A stretch of 64,000 nt of DNA from Pseudanabaena galeata CCNP1313 (lineage in GTDB: Bacteria > Cyanobacteriota > Cyanobacteriia > Pseudanabaenales > Pseudanabaenaceae): positions 4,330,501-4,394,500 of the forward strand of contig NZ_CP112874.1 in assembly GCF_029910235.1 (NCBI RefSeq), given 5' to 3'. The translations under genes and the position numbers were made by a program. This document shows positions 27,937 through 40,050 of this stretch, piece by piece. Each line of letters starts with the position of its first letter. Position 1 is the first letter of the stretch. The notes under the pieces were generated by a model. That model saw only the letters and a program-made list of their open reading frames with translations, did no database searches and was not told the DNA's origin.

Positions 27937-27971
27937 AAAAAAGAAAGGGCGCTTAGCGCCCTTTCTTTTTT
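27937..27971. terminator. Bidirectional terminator of desC
   Basis: AAAAAAGAAAGGGCGC and GCGCCCTTTCTTTTTT enclose TTA; it overlaps the last codons of desC (minus strand). Confidence 0.85.
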
Positions 27972-28833
27972 ATTTAGCTTGCCAAGGCTCAGGTATATAA
28001 ACTTTCTTCGCCAAACCAACTGCTTGCAGCAGATTGATTACACCCCAAGTTGGATCGATTTCCCACCACTTCAAACCAGAACGCGCAGACTTAGGAAATG
28101 CATGGTGATTGTTGTGCCAGCCTTCGCCATAGGTCAAAATTGCTGCCCACCAAAGGTTTGTGGAATGGTCAGGGGTTTCCGCAAAATTCTTGTATCCCCA
28201 TTTGTGACAAGCAGAGTTAATCAACCAAGTGCTATGCCATAGAGCTACGGAGCGTACAGCCACGCCATACACCAAGAACGATGTACCTAGCCCAGAGAAA
28301 ACCTTTTCACCAATTACATAAAGTAATGCTGCGAGGGGGATTTGCAATAATAGGAAGTAGATATCTAAAAACTTGTAGTAAGGATCGTTAGCAAGATCAG
28401 GTGCAAATTTGCTGTAGTTTGAACGCTGAAAATGCTCAGGCTTGGAGTACATGATCCACATCATGTGGCTCCACCAAAAACCTTTATTTGCCGAGTAGGG
28501 ATCTTTTTGATTGTCTTCTGTAAAACCGTGATGCTGGCGATGTCCGCCCACCCAAAATACGGGACCGCCTTGAAGTGCTAATGCTCCAATTGTGGCGATG
28601 ATGTATTCCAACCACTGAGGCACTTGAAAACTACGATGGCTAAGCAAGCGATGATATCCTAAAGTGATGCCGATGCTGCCAAATAACCAGTGCAAGAAAA
28701 CTGTAAGGATTACAGCTTGCCACGAGAAGTAAAAAGGCGCAGCTAGGGCAGCGAGATGAAAAGCACTGAAGAAGGCAACATTTGTCCAGTTCAGGTTTTG
28801 TTCTTTTGAGATGGCTTCAGTAGTGACGGTCAT
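27970..28833 (-). CDS. desC: Acyl-lipid delta-9 fatty acid desaturase
   Basis: 287 residues from ATG 28833 (MTVTTEAISKEQN); the frame is open to 28875, but that region contains an operator. The three histidine boxes for the di-iron centre are intact: HRLLSHRSF, HRQHH and HNNHHAFP. Several membrane helices are present. It introduces the first double bond into C18/C16 acyl chains of membrane lipids and thereby sets fluidity. It is divergent from the TetR-recombinase fusion gene, with two palindromic operators between them, so it is probably that regulator's target. Confidence 0.95.
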   Translation of the reverse strand: MTVTTEAISKEQNLNWTNVAFFSAFHLAALAAPFYFSWQAVILTVFLHWLFGSIGITLGYHRLLSHRSFQVPQWLEYIIATIGALALQGGPVFWVGGHRQHHGFTEDNQKDPYSANKGFWWSHMMWIMYSKPEHFQRSNYSKFAPDLANDPYYKFLDIYFLLLQIPLAALLYVIGEKVFSGLGTSFLVYGVAVRSVALWHSTWLINSACHKWGYKNFAETPDHSTNLWWAAILTYGEGWHNNHHAFPKSARSGLKWWEIDPTWGVINLLQAVGLAKKVYIPEPWQAK

Positions 28834-28863
28834 GAAATAATAACTTAAGGGGTGGTGAGGAGA

Positions 28864-28880
28864 TGCAAGTATCACTTACA
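28864..28880. promoter_or_regulatory. Operator-like inverted repeat O2 (desC side)
   Basis: TGCAAGT-ATC-ACTTACA, a 17-bp inverted repeat with one mismatch, 31 bp upstream of the desC start. The second copy lies 51 bp away at 28915. Confidence 0.75.
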
Positions 28881-28914
28881 GTTATGCTAAGTCTAACTGT
28901 TTTTTAAGTAATAA

Positions 28915-28931
28915 TGCAAGTATCACTTGCA
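28915..28931. promoter_or_regulatory. Operator-like inverted repeat O1 (regulator side)
   Basis: TGCAAGT-ATC-ACTTGCA, a perfect 17-bp inverted repeat with a 3-bp spacer, 10 bp upstream of the TetR-fusion ATG. The size and symmetry fit a TetR-dimer operator. Confidence 0.8.
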
Positions 28932-28941
28932 AATCATCTCA

Positions 28942-30198
28942 ATGGTACATGCGCTCATGTCTGTATCTCGAATTCCTACTCGTCAACGCATAGTCAATAC
29001 AGCTCTAGAGTTGTTTGCTAGCAAAGGAATCACCGAGACAACTACCCGCCAAATTGCTGACTTTGCTCAGGTTAATGAAGTAACTTTATTTCGTCATTTT
29101 GGAAATAAACATGGGTTATTGCTAGCCGTATTGCAAGAATGTCTGCAAAAATATCTGGTGTTGGCGCAAGTGGGAGAGTCGCTCATGGTGTCAGATATCT
29201 CTAGTCAGAGTGATTTGCGGAGATTTCTCAAATATTACATTCAGAGTTCTTTGCGGGCGCTCGAAAGTGTGCCTGAGTTGGTGCGATCGCTAGTTGGGGA
29301 GGCAGGACAATATCCCCTAGAGAGTCGTCAAGCACTCGCCCAAGGTATTAATCAAGTCAATCAGACGATCGCTACAGCCATCCATGATGTGTTGATTAAT
29401 TCGCGTTTGCAATATTCTTTGCCGCCAATTAAGCTGGCTAACTTATTAAATACTTGTATTTTGGGTTACGCAGTGATCACTTTAACCAGTGATGTCCAGA
29501 CGATTTGGAGCGATCGCGATGAGTTTGTGAGTACATTGGTGGATATGTTTGTTCAAGAAGTCATCCCCATCTCTCAAGCCAAACCAATTATTGATATCCC
29601 TGCGGAGATTGTCCGCGAAATCCTATTGCAAGCTAAGAAATGTGGGGTAAATGACTACGCGATCGCCTATCTATTATTTGGATCAGGAATCACTGCGCTG
29701 GATATTACGCGCTTGGGTCTAACTGACTACCAGCATCATGCTAATCATGGAATTTTACGAACTAGGGATAAAGCTGGTAATGAGAGATCTGTACCACTCA
29801 ATCAAAAAATTCTTGGTCATCGTTATGGTTCAGCAACCAATAACCCCCTCAGTGCCTATCTCAAGACTCGTAAGAACGAACTTAAGCATGATTTAAAAGA
29901 GCTGCAAAATATTGACAATATCGAGTTTTTGTTTTTCAGTAGTGATCGCCAACCCTTGTCGTTAGAAGAAATCGAACAAATGTGGGATCGTTGGACACAG
30001 CCCTATCGCAATCTCGATGGCTCAACTTTAACTATCGATCAAGCCCGTCATACTTGGTGTATCGAAATGTTATCTCGTGGCATTGATGTTGATAGCTTTA
30101 GCATCATTAGCGGCATCAAGCCCAAAGAAATGCAAGCTTATCAAATCCGCCTTAATCAAAAGTTAGCGATCGATAAAGCGATCGCCCTTGATTCTTAA
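28942..30198 (+). CDS. TetR-family regulator fused to a degenerate tyrosine-recombinase domain
   Basis: 418 residues from ATG 28942; TTG 28927 and ATG 28957 are other starts. Residues ~10-60 are a TetR HTH (RQRIVNTALELFASKGITETTTRQIADFA, VTLFRHFGNK) followed by a TetR ligand domain to ~210. Residues ~225-410 follow the layout of a phage-integrase catalytic domain: LLFGSGITALDITRLGLTDY, TRDKAGNERSVPL, FLFFSSDRQPLSLEEIEQMW and QARHTWCIEMLSRGIDV. Key residues are degraded: Thr replaces the first Arg (T251), Asp replaces the His of HxxR (D366, R369 kept), and the later LGH motif is lost. K277 and Y400 remain. It probably binds DNA without recombining it, and is divergent from desC with shared operators. 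Confidence 0.85.
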   Translation: MVHALMSVSRIPTRQRIVNTALELFASKGITETTTRQIADFAQVNEVTLFRHFGNKHGLLLAVLQECLQKYLVLAQVGESLMVSDISSQSDLRRFLKYYIQSSLRALESVPELVRSLVGEAGQYPLESRQALAQGINQVNQTIATAIHDVLINSRLQYSLPPIKLANLLNTCILGYAVITLTSDVQTIWSDRDEFVSTLVDMFVQEVIPISQAKPIIDIPAEIVREILLQAKKCGVNDYAIAYLLFGSGITALDITRLGLTDYQHHANHGILRTRDKAGNERSVPLNQKILGHRYGSATNNPLSAYLKTRKNELKHDLKELQNIDNIEFLFFSSDRQPLSLEEIEQMWDRWTQPYRNLDGSTLTIDQARHTWCIEMLSRGIDVDSFSIISGIKPKEMQAYQIRLNQKLAIDKAIALDS

Positions 30199-30233
30199 AA
30201 GTAAAAACGACCCTTTGGGTCGTTTTTACTTTT
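30197..30233. terminator. Terminator of the TetR-fusion gene
   Basis: The 17-bp arms AAAAGTAAAAACGACCC and GGGTCGTTTTTACTTTT enclose TTT. It starts at the stop codon. Confidence 0.85.
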
Positions 30234-30300
30234 TTAGCTATTTTCACCAAGTTAATAAACTTAGTGTATAATTCGGGCGTTTAATGTACTTAAAAAATTG

Positions 30301-30426: not shown

Positions 30427-32565
30427 GTGAGAGTTCCCCTAGACTGTTACCGAATCCTTGGTTTAACACACCTGTCAGGGCTAGATAAAATCCATCAAGC
30501 CCATCGCGATCGCCTGCTCTCTATGCCAAGGCGTGAATATTCTGATGCGGCGATCGCCTCTCGCAAGCGCATTATTGACAAAGCTTATGAAACTCTGACT
30601 GAACGCGCAATTCCTGCGGAAGCAAATGATCTATTAGAGGCAGATAGCGATCGCCCAGTTTTAACATTGCCGCCTCAGATTGAAGCTGACGAAAAAGACT
30701 TTGCAGGGCTACTACTGATTTTGTACGAACTCGGCGAATCCGATAAGGTTTTATCCCTTGCTAAACCCTATTACGACCCCGAAGAAGCCGAGTATCAGTC
30801 CGCTAGAATTTCTCCCCATGATCCAGATCTTTTGCTATCTGTATCTTTGTCCTATCTAGATCTCGGTCGTGAATATTGGAAACAGGGGCAGTATGAGTCA
30901 GCGGCTTCATCTTTAGAATCTGCTCAAGAAATTTTATTGCGGGAAGGATTATTCCTCAGTATTCGCAGTGAAATCCAAGCCGATCTATTCCGTCTGCGCC
31001 CCTATCGCATTCTCGAATTGTTAGCATCACCTGACAATCACACCAATGAACATCGCAAAGGTATGTCGCTTTTGCAAGAGATGCTGGATGCAAGGCGAGG
31101 CATTGATGGTTCGGGTAATGACTATTCTAGTCTCGGTATTGATGATTTCTTGCGGTTTATCCAGCAACTACGTAGCTATATGACGGCGATCGAGCAGCAA
31201 ACCCTGTTTGAGGAAGAAGCGCGTCGTCCATCTTCTGTCGCAACCTATCTCGCTGTATATGCCTTAATTGCCCGTGGATTTTCTCAGCGTCAGCCAGCCT
31301 TGATCCGTCGTGCTAAGGGGCTGCTAGTCAAACTCAGTGCTAAGCAAGATATTTATCTGGAAAAAGCGGTATGTGCTTTGTTGCTAGGGCAGACCGAAGA
31401 AGCAAGTGCGGCGATCGACAATAGTGCGGAAGAGGATCAAATTGCTTTCATCCGTCAAAATTCTGAAGGTGCGCCTGATCTTTTGCCTGGGCTATGTCTC
31501 TATAGCGAACGTTGGCTCCAAGAAGAGGTCTATCCACATTTCCGCGATCTGATGAGTCAAATCGTCTCGCTCAAGGATTATTTTGCCGACGAACAAGTGC
31601 AAGCATACCTAGAAGAATTACCGAATACTGGCGCAATGTCATCGGAATGGACTTCGCCTGTGGGTGGCGATCGCTTATCTGCGATGTCTTCTCTTGATGA
31701 TTCGCCAACTGTAAATCGTGATTTTGATCTAAATCCTGCGAAAAGTACTGTTGCAGAACCAAAACTTTCTAACTATGCCCCTGAAACTCCTAACCGTTTT
31801 CAGCGATCGGCGACTCCCGTAATTGAGCGACCTGCCTATGTCAATGCCAATGGCACGGGTAATGCAGCGCGAGGCTTACCTAGCTCTCGCCGTACTAGTA
31901 ACGTACCACCAACAAGAAACGTTAATGAGCCGATCAGGGAAATCAAACGTCCATCTCAAGTTCACACATCTCCTCCAAAACGTAAGTTTAATGTTGGTCG
32001 TTTAGTTACGGTAATTGTGGTGGCGATCGCCTTATTGGTTGGCAGTATTAGTTTAGTTGTTTGGGCTGTTCGAGCCTTAAGTGGTTCTACACAACCACAG
32101 CCTGTAACTCTAGAAAAACCGATCACAACTCTAGTCCAAGCCCTCAAAGAAACTAATGCTGCACCAATTGCTCAACCAGGACCCTTAGACAAAGAAACTG
32201 CTACCAAACTCATCGAAACATGGCAAGCAACTAAAGCTAAGGCTTTGGGCAAAGATTATGAGGACAATCTTTTAGAAGAAGTTTTAGTTGATCCTGCCCT
32301 TAGCGACTGGAAAGGACGCGCTAAAGAACTTAAATCTACCAACTCTTATTTGCAGTATCAAACCAAATCTAGTGAAGTTGATAGTGTCGCCCCTGATGGT
32401 GATAGCAAAGCCAAAGTAATCGCTAAAATATCAGAGTCAAGAAATTATTTCTATAACGGTGATCTTGATCGCAGTGCATCAAAGGATGATGCTAGCTATA
32501 CGGTTGAGTATGACTTAGTAAAGAAAGATAATAAATGGCTAATTAGGGAAATGTTAGTCTTTTAA
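30427..32565 (+). CDS. zipN: Cell division protein ZipN/Ftn2 (ARC6 homologue)
   Basis: 712-residue divisome protein, cyanobacterial counterpart of plastid ARC6, which tethers FtsZ to the inner membrane. The GTG start gives the diagnostic MRVPLDCYRILGLTHLSG and a degenerate J-like N-terminal region (HRDRLLSMPRREYSDAAIASRK). A helical repeat region runs to ~400, a polar linker to ~515, one membrane segment lies at about 518-540 (LVTVIVVAIALLVGSISLVV), and the C-terminal ARC6-type IMS domain (DUF4101; LIETWQATKAKALGKDY) ends the protein. Monocistronic; its stop is inside the 32561 terminator. Confidence 0.95.
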   Translation: MRVPLDCYRILGLTHLSGLDKIHQAHRDRLLSMPRREYSDAAIASRKRIIDKAYETLTERAIPAEANDLLEADSDRPVLTLPPQIEADEKDFAGLLLILYELGESDKVLSLAKPYYDPEEAEYQSARISPHDPDLLLSVSLSYLDLGREYWKQGQYESAASSLESAQEILLREGLFLSIRSEIQADLFRLRPYRILELLASPDNHTNEHRKGMSLLQEMLDARRGIDGSGNDYSSLGIDDFLRFIQQLRSYMTAIEQQTLFEEEARRPSSVATYLAVYALIARGFSQRQPALIRRAKGLLVKLSAKQDIYLEKAVCALLLGQTEEASAAIDNSAEEDQIAFIRQNSEGAPDLLPGLCLYSERWLQEEVYPHFRDLMSQIVSLKDYFADEQVQAYLEELPNTGAMSSEWTSPVGGDRLSAMSSLDDSPTVNRDFDLNPAKSTVAEPKLSNYAPETPNRFQRSATPVIERPAYVNANGTGNAARGLPSSRRTSNVPPTRNVNEPIREIKRPSQVHTSPPKRKFNVGRLVTVIVVAIALLVGSISLVVWAVRALSGSTQPQPVTLEKPITTLVQALKETNAAPIAQPGPLDKETATKLIETWQATKAKALGKDYEDNLLEEVLVDPALSDWKGRAKELKSTNSYLQYQTKSSEVDSVAPDGDSKAKVIAKISESRNYFYNGDLDRSASKDDASYTVEYDLVKKDNKWLIREMLVF

Positions 32566-35139: not shown

Positions 35140-38100
35140 TCACACATTACTTAACTGTCGCCAATAGTCTTCTAACCATACTTCCCCTTGCCTAATGAGA
35201 TGGGTAAGGTCAAAATTCCACAGCCCGATCGCATTGCTGCCATGACCAGAAACAAAGCCATAACCATCAGGTCGGAAGCATAAACTAATGGGGGTATGAT
35301 CGGGACAAGATAGGGTTTGTAGCTCTTTGCCATCAAGGTTCCAGAGCTTAATTGTATTGTCGCTACTGCCTGAAATAATATTGCGTCCATCGGGACTAAA
35401 CCCAACCGCCCATACAACTGCCTCATGTCCTCTAAAGGTATGGATTAGCTCACCCGCTAAATTCCATAGTTTAAGCGTATTGTCGCTACTACCCGATAGC
35501 ACTAGTTCGCCATCGGGACTAAAACAGGCACTCCAGACTGCGCCGCGATGATCGCGGAGAGTAGCCAATTCGTGACCGTCAAGACTCCATAATTTAATTG
35601 TGTCATCACCGCTACCCGATAATACTCTTTGACCATCGGGGCTAAATTTAACAGTCCAGATCGTGGAGCGATGTCCTGAGAGTGAACATAGCTCTACACC
35701 ATTCCCCGTGCCGTCAATTTGCCATATTTTTACCAATTTGTCCCCACTGCCAGAGACAACCTGTTGTCCGTTGGGGCTAATATCCACTGTCCATACTGCT
35801 GTGCTGTGACCCACTAGACTTTGTTTTAGTTGCGGATTTGTTCCCATTGACCAAAGGGCGATCGCATTATCGCCACTACCGATCGCAAGGGTTTGACCAT
35901 CAGGACTAAAGCTGACACTTAAAATATCATGTTCACATTCTATGGTTTGGCACAGATTACCCTGCATATCCCAAATTTTGATGCACTTATCTAAGCTGCC
36001 CGAAACAAAGGTTTGACCATCGGGGCTAATTGCCACAGTTCGTACCGCCGCACTATGTCCATCCCAAAGCTGTTGTACACGATTATTGATTTCCCATAGA
36101 CGCACTGTGCAGTCGAGACTGGCTGAGAGCAGGTTTTTTCCATCAGGGCTAAAGCTGACCGATCGCACCGCCTCGTCATGTCCTTTGAGGGTTTGCAGTT
36201 CGTGACCTTGCAAATCCCAAAGCTTAATATTTTTATCGGCGCTTCCTGATGCCAGAATGTTACTGTCTGGACTAAAGCTAAGGCTGCGAATAGCGCTGGT
36301 ATGCCCTTGAATTGAGAATATTTCTGTAGCTTGCAAGTTCTGAAGATCCGAGTCGGCTCCCTTTTCCATTTGCCAGATTTTCAGCATATTATCGCCACTG
36401 CCAGAGGCGATTAGCATTCCATTGGCGCTGAGGCTCAGACATCGGATATCTGCAGTATGTCCTTTGAGAGTTTGTAATATTGTGCCATCTAGTGACCAGA
36501 TCATAATGTTTTTGTCAGAGCCGCCCGAAATGATCAATTCTCCATTAGGGCTGAATAGCACATTTCGCACATCGCCGCGATGTCCACTCAGGGTCTGGAT
36601 TTCAGTACCGTCAAGTTGCCAAAGTTTGATGGTTTTGTCAGCGCTGCCCGAAACGATGAGATTACCATCGTTATTAAATCTGGCGCTCCAGACGGCTCCT
36701 GTATGCCCTGTAAATGTATGCAGGCGATCGCCTTGGAGATTCCAAAGCCCAATAGTTTTATCGCTACTACTAGAGAGAATCATCTGTCCATCGGGACTAA
36801 AGGAAGCGCTGCGAATTGCGCCTGTATGCCCAATTAGTTCGCCGATCTGCGTTCCATTTGCTTGCCAAATTTTAATCTTATTGTCTAGTCCACCAGTGAC
36901 AAATAACGAAGCATCGGCATTATATTCCGCACTCCATACCCCTTCTAAATGGGAATTGATGCGATTCTTTTCTTTGATTTCATAAATAGCGCGGTAAATA
37001 GTACTAGTTAATTGCCAGCGCGTCTCTGAAGCGATCGCTTGAATCTCTGGCAGCCATTTAGTCGCCATCCGTATGGCTTTAGATAGTTCACTGAGGTCGA
37101 GGAGTCGGTTCGATAGCAAACTGTTCAACCCCAAACTATCGGCGATCGCCTGTGAGTTTTTGAGGGAACTTTCTAGTTGGCGCACCGTTTGCCGTAATTC
37201 AGTTTGGGTTTTCTCTAGTTCCTTTTGCAGCTTTTGCAGTTCAGGTGACTGTGATTTGCGGATGATTACGGCTAAATAGTCATGGACTAGCTGACAGCGA
37301 TTAGTGGTTGCTTCAGGAATCAGCACTACCAACCCCGAACCAATGAGAATCTGTAAAACCAATTCGATCTTGTCAAGATCGAATTCACTGTGTTTATCAG
37401 AATCTGGTGCTTCCTGATCATCAGCATTGCCAAGAAAGCTGGAAATGGTTTGTCCTTGTTCTCGCACTTCACGATCAAGATTGTATAGTTCTCTCTCCAG
37501 ATCACCATAGGTTTTCAATGGTCTTGTGCCTTTTTCATCGGTCAGCAAATACAAAATCAAATTAGTGAGGCGATAGTTTTCTTTACCGCAATCACAAACC
37601 ACACTATCTAGATAGCGCTGCACTAACTTTTCCGTAGGATGACTACCCAGTTTTTGGTATTGCTTGATCGTACTAATTTGATCCTGCTGTAGTTGTGCGC
37701 CCACAATTTGTAGCTCAATCGGGCGCACTTCATCCTGTTCATTGGTTAGATCTCGCACCAATAGATCAATTAATTGCGGTTCTAGATAAAATTGCGCTCT
37801 CTCCGTCAATGTCCTAATCGTGGAATGGGCGGCGGCTGTGGAGAAATTACCCATTTGATAGAGAACATTTTTGCTGAGAATGTCATTGTCGATCGCACTC
37901 ATATTGGCAATACGATTGCCCTCTAGTAGATAATGAATATAGTCTTCACGCAGGGATAGAACTACTTTGAGAGACGATAAATATTGGAAGTCACTGAGCA
38001 AACTGCCTAAAAATTCAAAAAAGCGCTGCCGTTCTGAAACTTGATATTGATGGACAAAAAAGAACTCTTCAAATTGATCAAATATTAAGACCGAACGGAA

Positions 38101-40050
38101 ATTATGGGATTCATTCCAGCGCAACTGTTCGATAATGCGATCGCATAGTGAGTGCTTATCTGATGTGGCGGGGTCAATCGGATTAGCGAGCAACGGTGCA
38201 GAATTTAGTTGCAACAATTCTAATGAATCGATCAATAGATCGGTGATTTCCTGATCCCAACTGGTGTAAACCCTTTGAAATATAGGAATTACCGTGCGTC
38301 CACCATAGGTAGTTTGTTGCAAAGCGGGCATTAGCCCTGCATTTACAAAGGAACTTTTACCAACCCCAGAGTTACCATGTAAAACGATCAATTTGTAACG
38401 GGGTTCACTAATACGCCTAGTTAGTTCATCTAAATCTTGTTTGCGTCCTGACGCATAGATTTCGGGAGAGATAATGAATCGATTTTTTTGACCAGAAAAG
38501 CTCGAATATTCTTCGAGACAGGACTGCAATTGTCCTGCACCGATAAAAGCGCGATATCCATAGCGCTGCTCGATTGCGAGGCGTTCTTGTTTAGTTTGGA
38601 AAGCTTCTAAATATCTTCCCTGTACAAAATATAAATCCCGTAATTGATTCAAAATGCGAATGTACATGTGGGGATGTCCACAATGGCTACGCTTGCGGGC
38701 TTTAAGCAGGTTTTCTAAGGCAGTTTCATGGTTGTTTAGCTGGATTTGTGCTTCTGCTAGATAACACCAATACAAACCATAGAGCCAATGATAGGTATTA
38801 GGGGTTTGGGACAGTAGTGAGAGCGCTTGCTCAGCATATTCCTGTGCTATTTGCCATTGTTGTTGAGCGAGGGCGACTTCGGCAAGGAAGCCATAGTCAG
38901 CAGCGAGGTAATGGGTCTGTTCTTGATGTACCGATAAAGCTTTGTGAGAGAGAGCTTTTAATTCTGTCCAAGATTGGAGGTGGTGCAGAGTGCGTTGTAA
39001 TTGCAGATAGCATTCGGACATTAGATCGGGGCGATCGGCAATCTCAAAACAAGCAAGACTGCGGAAAAACAAATCTTGAACCGTTTGCCAGTTCTCTTCA
39101 TGGGAATGCTTTTCTAATTTAGTTAGGTGATAGCGCCGCCGCCCAATTTGATAGAGAAGTAATCCTTGTCGCTCAAAGTTTTGGATCGATTCCCAATATT
39201 GATAACTGGCTTGCAAGTAGGACAGGGAAGTACTAAATTCGGCGGTATTCATGCCGCGAATGAAGTCTAGCCCTGCTTTTAGAGCGGGGGCGATCGCCTG
39301 TCCTTGGTTCCGTAAATCTCGCAAAGCTAGATCTAACTCCGATAGATAAATGCCACCTAAATGCGATATGCGCCCAAGGCTATAGCTAGGATCGATCAAT
39401 TTGGCACTAAGAGCCATGTTAAACAGGGCTTCTGTCCCTGAATATAATGATTCCTTAAGATCATTACCTGCGATCGCCAATTCAATGGTTGTTGTCCAAC
39501 TCTCAAAGTCAGGTGCAACCCGAATCATCCGCTTCAGGACATCATCATTAATCCACAGTACAATCGGGAAATGGCAATTTTTACGAAACTCTTCGCGGAT
39601 TTGGTTCAGACTCTTGACTAGTCCATCGACATTACCGCTAAGCTCAATCCCTGTCACCATTATGGATGTAGTTGCCGTCGAGCCTTCTGGTTGAATCAAC
39701 TGATAAATTGATGATGTCGTTGCCTCAATGCCCACTTGACGGATTGGCATAGAACTAATCTCACATAGTCTAGCGATCGCGCGATCGCGCAGATTTGCAT
39801 AGTTGCACCTTGCTAGCAGCAATGTAAACGTATTCTCATAGATGTCCAAAAGCAAAGATAGCTCTTGGATTGCATCTTCCATTTCTGAGGAGATATTAAA
39901 GGAACTCACCAAATCACTTTGATAGCGATCCTGTTGCGAGGTCATGGTCTGGATTGCTTGCTCAGTCTCTGGAGAAAAGTAAAAGACGGTTACATCTTCG
40001 CGGGATTGAGATTGCTTATAGTTGGCATTATCGGCATTATCATTTTGCAT
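35140..40050 (-). CDS. STAND NTPase with TPR-like region and 14 WD40 repeats
   Basis: A 1636-residue multidomain protein. Residues 1-~215 resemble the non-catalytic STAND-like module often found in cyanobacterial conflict proteins (PIVLWINDDVLKRM, then APDFESWTTTIE). A TPR-like helical region follows to ~510. An nSTAND1-type NTPase has Walker A HGNSGVGKSS near 560 and Walker B LIFDQFEEFF near 652. A coiled coil lies at ~935-970. Fourteen WD40 units (GSxDxxIKLW endings) run from ~1030 to the end, enough for two seven-bladed propellers. STAND-WD40 proteins are sensors that oligomerise on ligand binding. It is encoded 13 bp after the ATPase gene at 40064, so the two form a pair. No nuclease or other effector domain was recognised. 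Confidence 0.85.
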   Translation of the reverse strand: MQNDNADNANYKQSQSREDVTVFYFSPETEQAIQTMTSQQDRYQSDLVSSFNISSEMEDAIQELSLLLDIYENTFTLLLARCNYANLRDRAIARLCEISSMPIRQVGIEATTSSIYQLIQPEGSTATTSIMVTGIELSGNVDGLVKSLNQIREEFRKNCHFPIVLWINDDVLKRMIRVAPDFESWTTTIELAIAGNDLKESLYSGTEALFNMALSAKLIDPSYSLGRISHLGGIYLSELDLALRDLRNQGQAIAPALKAGLDFIRGMNTAEFSTSLSYLQASYQYWESIQNFERQGLLLYQIGRRRYHLTKLEKHSHEENWQTVQDLFFRSLACFEIADRPDLMSECYLQLQRTLHHLQSWTELKALSHKALSVHQEQTHYLAADYGFLAEVALAQQQWQIAQEYAEQALSLLSQTPNTYHWLYGLYWCYLAEAQIQLNNHETALENLLKARKRSHCGHPHMYIRILNQLRDLYFVQGRYLEAFQTKQERLAIEQRYGYRAFIGAGQLQSCLEEYSSFSGQKNRFIISPEIYASGRKQDLDELTRRISEPRYKLIVLHGNSGVGKSSFVNAGLMPALQQTTYGGRTVIPIFQRVYTSWDQEITDLLIDSLELLQLNSAPLLANPIDPATSDKHSLCDRIIEQLRWNESHNFRSVLIFDQFEEFFFVHQYQVSERQRFFEFLGSLLSDFQYLSSLKVVLSLREDYIHYLLEGNRIANMSAIDNDILSKNVLYQMGNFSTAAAHSTIRTLTERAQFYLEPQLIDLLVRDLTNEQDEVRPIELQIVGAQLQQDQISTIKQYQKLGSHPTEKLVQRYLDSVVCDCGKENYRLTNLILYLLTDEKGTRPLKTYGDLERELYNLDREVREQGQTISSFLGNADDQEAPDSDKHSEFDLDKIELVLQILIGSGLVVLIPEATTNRCQLVHDYLAVIIRKSQSPELQKLQKELEKTQTELRQTVRQLESSLKNSQAIADSLGLNSLLSNRLLDLSELSKAIRMATKWLPEIQAIASETRWQLTSTIYRAIYEIKEKNRINSHLEGVWSAEYNADASLFVTGGLDNKIKIWQANGTQIGELIGHTGAIRSASFSPDGQMILSSSSDKTIGLWNLQGDRLHTFTGHTGAVWSARFNNDGNLIVSGSADKTIKLWQLDGTEIQTLSGHRGDVRNVLFSPNGELIISGGSDKNIMIWSLDGTILQTLKGHTADIRCLSLSANGMLIASGSGDNMLKIWQMEKGADSDLQNLQATEIFSIQGHTSAIRSLSFSPDSNILASGSADKNIKLWDLQGHELQTLKGHDEAVRSVSFSPDGKNLLSASLDCTVRLWEINNRVQQLWDGHSAAVRTVAISPDGQTFVSGSLDKCIKIWDMQGNLCQTIECEHDILSVSFSPDGQTLAIGSGDNAIALWSMGTNPQLKQSLVGHSTAVWTVDISPNGQQVVSGSGDKLVKIWQIDGTGNGVELCSLSGHRSTIWTVKFSPDGQRVLSGSGDDTIKLWSLDGHELATLRDHRGAVWSACFSPDGELVLSGSSDNTLKLWNLAGELIHTFRGHEAVVWAVGFSPDGRNIISGSSDNTIKLWNLDGKELQTLSCPDHTPISLCFRPDGYGFVSGHGSNAIGLWNFDLTHLIRQGEVWLEDYWRQLSNV

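Follow-up and report, generated by a model that had tools for sequence, protein, structure and literature searches.

A TetR protein fused to a tyrosine-recombinase domain with a lost active site is a candidate regulator of the desaturase gene desC in cyanobacteria

Introduction

Cyanobacteria adjust the fluidity of their membranes through fatty-acid desaturases, and in these organisms desaturase control is linked to temperature. In a 64,000-nucleotide stretch of the genome of Pseudanabaena galeata CCNP1313 (contig NZ_CP112874.1, positions 4,330,501 to 4,394,500; hereafter the window), the desaturase gene desC lies divergently to an open reading frame (ORF) whose first half resembles a TetR regulator and whose second half resembles the catalytic domain of a tyrosine recombinase. 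This arrangement raises the question of what a recombinase domain does in a putative transcription factor beside a desaturase gene, and whether it is a decaying remnant, a still-active enzyme or a part of the regulator that has been kept for another role. The genes and domains considered here are the following:

28942-30198, plus strand: regulator ORF, 418 aa
28942..29571, plus strand: TetR half, i.e. DNA-binding domain (PF00440, 2.9e-13) and predicted helical regulatory/dimer domain (nearly all-helical model)
28990-29130 (residues 17-63), plus strand: TetR DNA-binding domain (PF00440)
29587..30195 (residues 216-418), plus strand: tyrosine-recombinase catalytic domain, predicted to be inactive (PF00589, model, XerA match, lost catalytic residues)
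30201..30235, plus strand: likely intrinsic terminator, an inverted repeat with a T run directly after the stop codon, read from the sequence
27970..28875, minus strand: desC, membrane fatty-acid desaturase (PF00487 FA_desaturase, 1.1e-18), divergent neighbour and predicted target

Results

By its helix-turn-helix domain, the ORF is assigned to the TetR family. The Pfam model TetR_N (PF00440) matched residues 17-63 with an E-value of 2.9e-13 (49.8 bits against a cut-off of 24) and Phage_integrase (PF00589) matched residues 224-386, with 5.1e-9 for the whole protein and 8.7e-10 for the C-terminal piece alone, both matches exceeding the curated cut-offs. A search of the ORF against NCBIfam returned no model above its own cut-off and weak matches to the XerC and XerD models. 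In the N-terminal half, TetR_N was the sole Pfam match at E-values of up to 5, with no core-binding domain found. The full-length model (pLDDT 83.5) was nearly all helical over residues 91-205, a block with pLDDT values of 74-91, while its pTM of 0.54 leaves the relative arrangement of the domains uncertain. The window's own genome contains one match to the fused protein. Next downstream, beyond the likely terminator, stands a gene for an ARC6/Ftn2-type cell-division protein (30427-32565, plus strand; PF23468, 8.7e-55; PF13355, 1.4e-29), and a 1636-residue ORF on the minus strand (35140-40050) carries, as read from its translation, apparent TPR-like repeats, a P-loop NTPase-like region and many WD40-type repeats.

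The C-terminal domain, predicted by AlphaFold with 41 homologues, reached a pLDDT of 91.3 and a pTM of 0.88. Foldseek comparison of the predicted domain with the PDB placed XerA at the top (E 7.6e-9, query TM 0.68), and all among the 50 matches listed were tyrosine recombinases and integrases. VIA-align likewise ranked XerA (5hxy) first, with a Z score of 20.0 and an rmsd of 3.6 over 179 residues, followed by XerH, an integron integrase and others; its matches also include the phage repressors SroF (9rgl, Z 13.0), YopR (8bpz, Z 12.0) and MrpR (8a0a, Z 11.6) as well as type IB topoisomerases. From sequence alone, a profile of the domain found an archaeal Xer protein (4a8e) at 7.9e-10. The predicted structure assigns the catalytic-domain fold of tyrosine recombinases to the C-terminal half.

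Catalytic positions were assigned from an alignment with Xer proteins and counted over 151 distinct homologues (of 164 rows). At the set R, D/E, K, H, R, H/W and Y, the window copy reads T251, D254, N280, D366, R369, I392 and Y400; it thus retains the second Arg (R369) and the Tyr (Y400), and its LGH box is replaced by S-G-I (390-392). Among the 151 homologues, the first Arg is conserved in 4, the acidic residue in 143, the Lys in 3 (an uncertain count, as the Lys column falls in a variable loop), the His in 1, the second Arg in 46, the H/W position in 59 (all Trp) and the Tyr in 140, the remaining rows having Phe (7), Leu (2), His (1) or a gap (1) in place of the Tyr. The full seven-residue set occurs in none of the distinct rows and the maximum is five; loci L030 and L184, which reach it, are the least eroded copies seen and may help to trace the origin of the domain. 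The most conserved residues of the domain, e.g. Y295-G296, N301-P302, W348 and T371-W372, differ from the catalytic ones. Judged by the catalytic residues, catalysis by the recombinase half is very unlikely.

Full-length fusions were found in 41 of 386 phylum genomes, in 35 as one piece and in 6 as two pieces, five of which realign as one. Across GTDB genomes, 330 stretches encode a relative; the TetR half lies upstream of the recombinase half in 80 of the 80 loci that were kept, and both share the same frame in 79. With these numbers, the fusion is not a chance or local accident. Relatives occur in Pseudanabaena, Nostoc, Anabaena, Calothrix, Fischerella, Scytonema, Microcoleus, Xenococcus, Spirulina, Phormidesmis and other lineages, and the two halves are joined by a linker of variable length, from under 10 to about 80 residues. 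One metagenome-assembled genome with the non-cyanobacterial title Tatlockia (L099) also carries the fused gene, desC and both of the operators described below; it is probably a misnamed or mixed assembly. A profile of the TetR half matched in 200 of 388 class genomes at E 1e-25, and among the matches listed most lie in frames near 400 residues, while some of the weakest are paralogues.

These results agree with a first, sequence-only reading of the locus in several respects. That reading had described a TetR regulator fused to a tyrosine-recombinase domain, which the two Pfam matches above cut-off and the recurrence across cyanobacteria confirm, and it had located the losses at the first Arg, the His of HxxR and the LGH box, as now found by alignment. 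It had also proposed comparing the predicted structure with tyrosine recombinases, from which XerA emerged as the best match and no fold unrelated to integrases turned up, and surveying cyanobacteria for the fusion, with the counts given above.

Among 146 phylum genomes, a search with the recombinase half revealed no free-standing relative at high score: 18 genomes matched at E 1e-4, 14 of them through the fusion itself, and the other four matches were weak (E 3e-6 to 4e-5) and correspond to Xer-like recombinases with visible HxLRH and Tyr motifs. Orthologues consisting of the TetR half only are found in family f26 (8 of 8 genomes), in genome G011 (locus L042) and at one locus of the window's own family (L193), and the copy of G534, a relative of G011, looks TetR-only too but runs off its contig. 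In a tree of 89 TetR domains rooted on paralogues, built after removal of L188, L194, L195, L200 and 11 repeats of the same genomes, the TetR-only rows nest inside the fused rows with four changes, one of them the insecure L177; the bootstrap is unsettled, support is uneven and some branches are long. This nesting gives no support to the fusion as a recent gain from an older TetR-only state, and the tree is consistent with one early fusion followed by several domain losses.

In a set of 20 Pseudanabaena-type loci, dN/dS had a median of 0.030 in the TetR half and of 0.103 in the recombinase half, based on 82 pairs with usable dS of 190, which are not independent and include two loci (L004 and L069) that appear to be one contig. 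Both halves are under purifying selection, the recombinase half less tightly. Where the two halves lie in different frames (L171, L173, L194, L195 and partly L178), the loci were set apart unrepaired, and L074 showed a frame difference between the halves in a quick test. Decay of a gene fusion was rejected, because the recombinase half has a dN/dS of 0.10 and, apart from a small number of loci, shares an open frame with the TetR half. The sequence-only reading had spoken of a degraded recombinase, with its fold recruited into a transcription factor beside desC: the loss of chemistry and the recruitment hold, while degradation in the sense of decay does not agree with a dN/dS of 0.10 against 0.03 and with the presence of the domain in many lineages. 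That reading further suggested that the fold may serve as an added module for DNA contact or dimerisation, a role taken up in the Discussion.

The divergent neighbour is a gene that we take to be desC, encoding a Delta9 desaturase, from the pattern of its histidine boxes, which read HRLLSH, HRQHH and HNNHH in its translation, and from its label in the earlier reading. Its start is likelier the ATG at 28833, since the longer GTG start at 28875 runs into the operator O1. desC stands beside the regulator in 44 of 44 loci of a first set, three of them TetR-only, and is divergent from it in 79 of the 80 GTDB loci, the exception being L080, where only a desC fragment was detected; as the two sets share some genomes, these counts are not to be added.

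In the intergenic region between desC and the regulator gene, two 17-bp palindromes of the form TGCAAGT-N3-ACTTGCA are predicted to act as operators:

28864..28880, unstranded: operator O1 (predicted), desC-proximal, TGCAAGTATCACTTACA, with one mismatch and a counterpart in 138 distinct operator-pair regions
28915..28931, unstranded: operator O2 (predicted), tetR-proximal, TGCAAGTATCACTTGCA, perfect outside the central three bases

Within the window, three matches with at most three mismatches were obtained (O1, O2 and the reading of O2 on the opposite strand); 0.18 were expected, and none of 100 shuffles reached three. At least one palindrome is present in 44 of 44 loci of the 44-locus set, with a pair 44-53 bp apart in 41; the exceptions are L034, with a pair at 85 bp, and the single sites of L043 and L044. 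Among the GTDB loci, 79 of 80 have a pair 46-55 bp apart with at most three mismatches in each site, and in the joint set a pair 42-56 bp apart is found in 152 of 168 regions. Over 138 distinct forms the spacing is 46-47 bp in 96 and 51-53 bp in 21, the range found in Pseudanabaena. The exact palindrome occurs in 67 of 194 class genomes compared with 2 for the reversed pattern, and all 10 loci kept from the palindrome search contain the fused gene and desC, some of them in genomes already seen.

In two genomes of one genus (G393 and G409) the regulator and desC stand in tandem, with an operator pair 48 bp apart that lies after the end of the regulator gene and before the start of desC; in both, the longest reading frame for desC extends over a site, and desC therefore probably begins further inside. 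G444 has a second desC on another contig (L251, C11; desC at 1054-1911) with a single exact palindrome at 2008-2024, about 97 bp upstream, and no regulator in the 4.1 kb read around it. Since the palindromes follow desC in the tandem genomes and at the second copy of G444, they can be attributed to desC, and the second copy, having a palindrome and no adjacent regulator, raises the possibility that paralogues of desC are controlled in trans.

O2 is the sole exact TGCAAGTNNNACTTGCA in the window's genome, which further contains three sites with one mismatch, O1 among them. A single exact site points to a narrow regulon. A wider one was considered and rejected for the other one-mismatch sites, one of which precedes a gene whose DHHA1 match is sub-threshold (L136) and the other falls within a DEAD helicase gene (L137). 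When as many as two mismatches are allowed, this genome has 28 sites and the reversed control 12, which leaves room for weaker targets.

One or both palindromes are retained by the TetR-only orthologues, and for this reason the TetR half, not the recombinase half, most likely reads the operators. A pair is missing in 7 of 10 TetR-only rows and in 2 of 74 fused or split rows. A link between domain loss and a single operator was not accepted, as this difference reflects two to three independent events, on which a sign test cannot reach significance. For this count L190 was scored by hand as paired, its pair being on the other side of the gene, and of the contig-edge loci L177 was left out and L172 kept as TetR-only with a pair. 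L200, which is TetR-only with a short frame, does have an operator pair.

Two candidate promoter elements for desC lie beside O1, both assigned by consensus only:

28884..28889, minus strand: candidate desC -10, TAGCAT, at an offset of 3 from O1
6 bp further upstream of TAGCAT, minus strand: second candidate desC -10, TAGACT, at an offset of 9 from O1

In 131 of 138 loci the desC strand carries a hexamer TAnnnT at a distance of 4-12 bp from O1, where shuffles gave a mean of 38 and at most 52. The regulator strand carries one 12-19 bp before O1 in 85 of the 138 loci, where shuffles gave a mean of 22 and at most 34. Both distance ranges were picked after viewing the alignments. If these hexamers are -10 elements, both transcription starts would lie at or near O1, fitting a repressor. 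A sigma-70 scan of the window's intergenic region found no promoter, so the promoters are what we infer from the hexamers. A conserved CGTTACAGTAG element is seen about 14 bp before O1 in many loci that do not belong to Pseudanabaena; TACAGT occurs in 54 of 138 left flanks of O1 compared with 2.5 expected by shuffling. This element is perhaps the -10 of the regulator gene or a site for another factor. Since it can be read as a -10 and is present also in the TetR-only locus L042, it does not clearly point to a binding site for the recombinase half.

Discussion

From this pattern we infer binding, repression, a ligand and a role for the recombinase half. It is likely, in our judgement, that the fused protein is a dedicated and self-regulating regulator of desC, most likely a repressor, in which the TetR half would act on the palindromes and the recombinase half would be non-catalytic. 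The TetR half would dimerise and bind O1 and O2. O1 would span the predicted transcription start of desC, and O2 would lie upstream, in the common layout close to the -35 position; the bound protein should thereby block transcription of desC and lower that of its own gene. If DesT, FabR and MadR are a guide, an acyl-ACP or acyl-CoA in the TetR core may then release the protein from DNA, which would couple desaturation to lipid supply or membrane state.

For the recombinase half, we prefer, as a tentative proposal, a role in pairing: ancestral subunit-contact or non-specific DNA-contact surfaces would hold the O1- and O2-bound dimers together, and the domain, tamed for this purpose in an early cyanobacterium, would link the pair of TetR dimers bound at the two operators of the desC promoter region. 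Hints in this direction are the narrow range of spacings and the small number of fused or split rows with a single operator (2 of 74, not significant). With 46-47 bp between the operators, roughly 4.5 turns, the dimers would sit on opposite faces of the DNA, making simple side-by-side pairing harder, and the TetR-only orthologue of G011 keeps both operators, so the operator pair does not need the recombinase domain. If the proposal is true, a dead recombinase-type assembly serves as a gene switch, and no metabolic (non-phage) regulator built in this way has, to our knowledge, been described before.

It is also possible, though to be held with reserve, that the recombinase half provides a further DNA-binding module that has a specific or semi-specific site of its own, between or beside the operators, and anchors the TetR dimer in the manner of MrpR. 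According to the accessible part of PMC10516654, MrpR uses this fold to bind DNA and shows no recombination activity. Its Tyr seems important for DNA binding, which can be set beside the Tyr retained in 140 of 151 homologues. Conserved basic residues such as R282, R310, K311 and R403 would suit such a module, as would the CGTTACAGTAG element in the subset of loci that have it. However, this element is readable as the regulator -10 and recurs in TetR-only L042, the conserved letters between the operators fit a desC -10, and the linker ranges from under 10 to about 80 residues while the operator spacing hardly changes.

We are more doubtful of a sensory or protein-interaction domain that would pass a second signal (e.g. 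temperature, redox or a partner) to the TetR half. The top-conserved residues are non-catalytic and could form a new surface, and the temperature-linked control of desaturases in cyanobacteria would give such a domain something to report, but the conserved residues could be merely structural, and no ligand site or partner was identified.

The regulator might instead activate desC. The TetR family includes FasR. As far as the accessible text of PMC8872791 goes, FasR is described as an activator, and O2, upstream of the predicted -10, has a possible activator position; nevertheless, an activator of desC is unlikely, because O1 overlaps the predicted transcription start, a blocking position, in nearly all loci. 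Least of all can the fused protein be a still-active recombinase or topoisomerase under TetR control, a reading that the Tyr in 140 of 151 homologues and the five of seven catalytic residues in L030 and L184 might invite, and that founders on the His in 1 of 151, the Lys in 3 and the first Arg in 4, on a Tyr position occupied by F, L or H in 10 rows, and on the core-binding domain not found in the N-terminal half by Pfam.

Comparison with known systems

The preferred reading, a TetR-based desC repressor with a non-catalytic recombinase half, can be compared with three groups of proteins, the nearest in function being DesT, FabR and MadR and the nearest as a dead recombinase fold being the phage repressor MrpR. 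DesT of Pseudomonas aeruginosa, FabR of E. coli and MadR of mycobacteria belong to the TetR family and are known as single TetR proteins. These acyl-thioester-sensing regulators of fatty-acid desaturation or unsaturated-lipid genes are compared in the accessible part of PMC8872791, where release by an acyl thioester is described for DesT and MadR. The likeness lies in a regulator on a desaturase gene with its operator in the target promoter, which in our case is predicted from sequence; the difference is that the fused protein adds a recombinase domain of about 200 residues.

The second group are recombinase-like phage repressors. MrpR (YopR), the master repressor of the SPbeta prophage, shares with the fused protein the recombinase fold, the loss of most catalytic residues, the retained Tyr and a place among transcription regulators; in the accessible part of PMC10516654, it is reported to have lost Arg and His residues, kept the Tyr and a Lys, and shown no recombination activity; according to the authors, the Tyr is of importance for stability and appears to be crucial when the protein binds DNA. 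MrpR is a prophage protein composed of a core-binding and a catalytic domain that itself binds DNA, whereas the fused protein has the catalytic domain only, with a TetR half in place of the core-binding domain, and stands beside a chromosomal desC. SroF of phage phi3T, a repressor by its structure title, is another structural match (9rgl, Z 13.0); it is a phage protein for which no TetR half is known, and is known here from structure titles alone. The Xer recombinases XerA, XerC and XerD, finally, have the catalytic-domain fold in common with the C-terminal half, while the fused protein has lost the active site, has a TetR half at its N-terminus and has no known recombination target.

In the accessible portions of the open-access literature (including PMC10516654, PMC8987985, PMC8872791, PMC7699953 and PMC2593844; most subscription papers lie outside this scope), neither a TetR-recombinase fusion nor a direct regulator of desC transcription in cyanobacteria is reported. 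The present analysis names a candidate desC regulator with exact predicted operators in many cyanobacterial lineages, which makes it directly testable. Desaturase regulators and dead-recombinase repressors are each known separately; their combination in one protein, its target and its conservation appear to be new.
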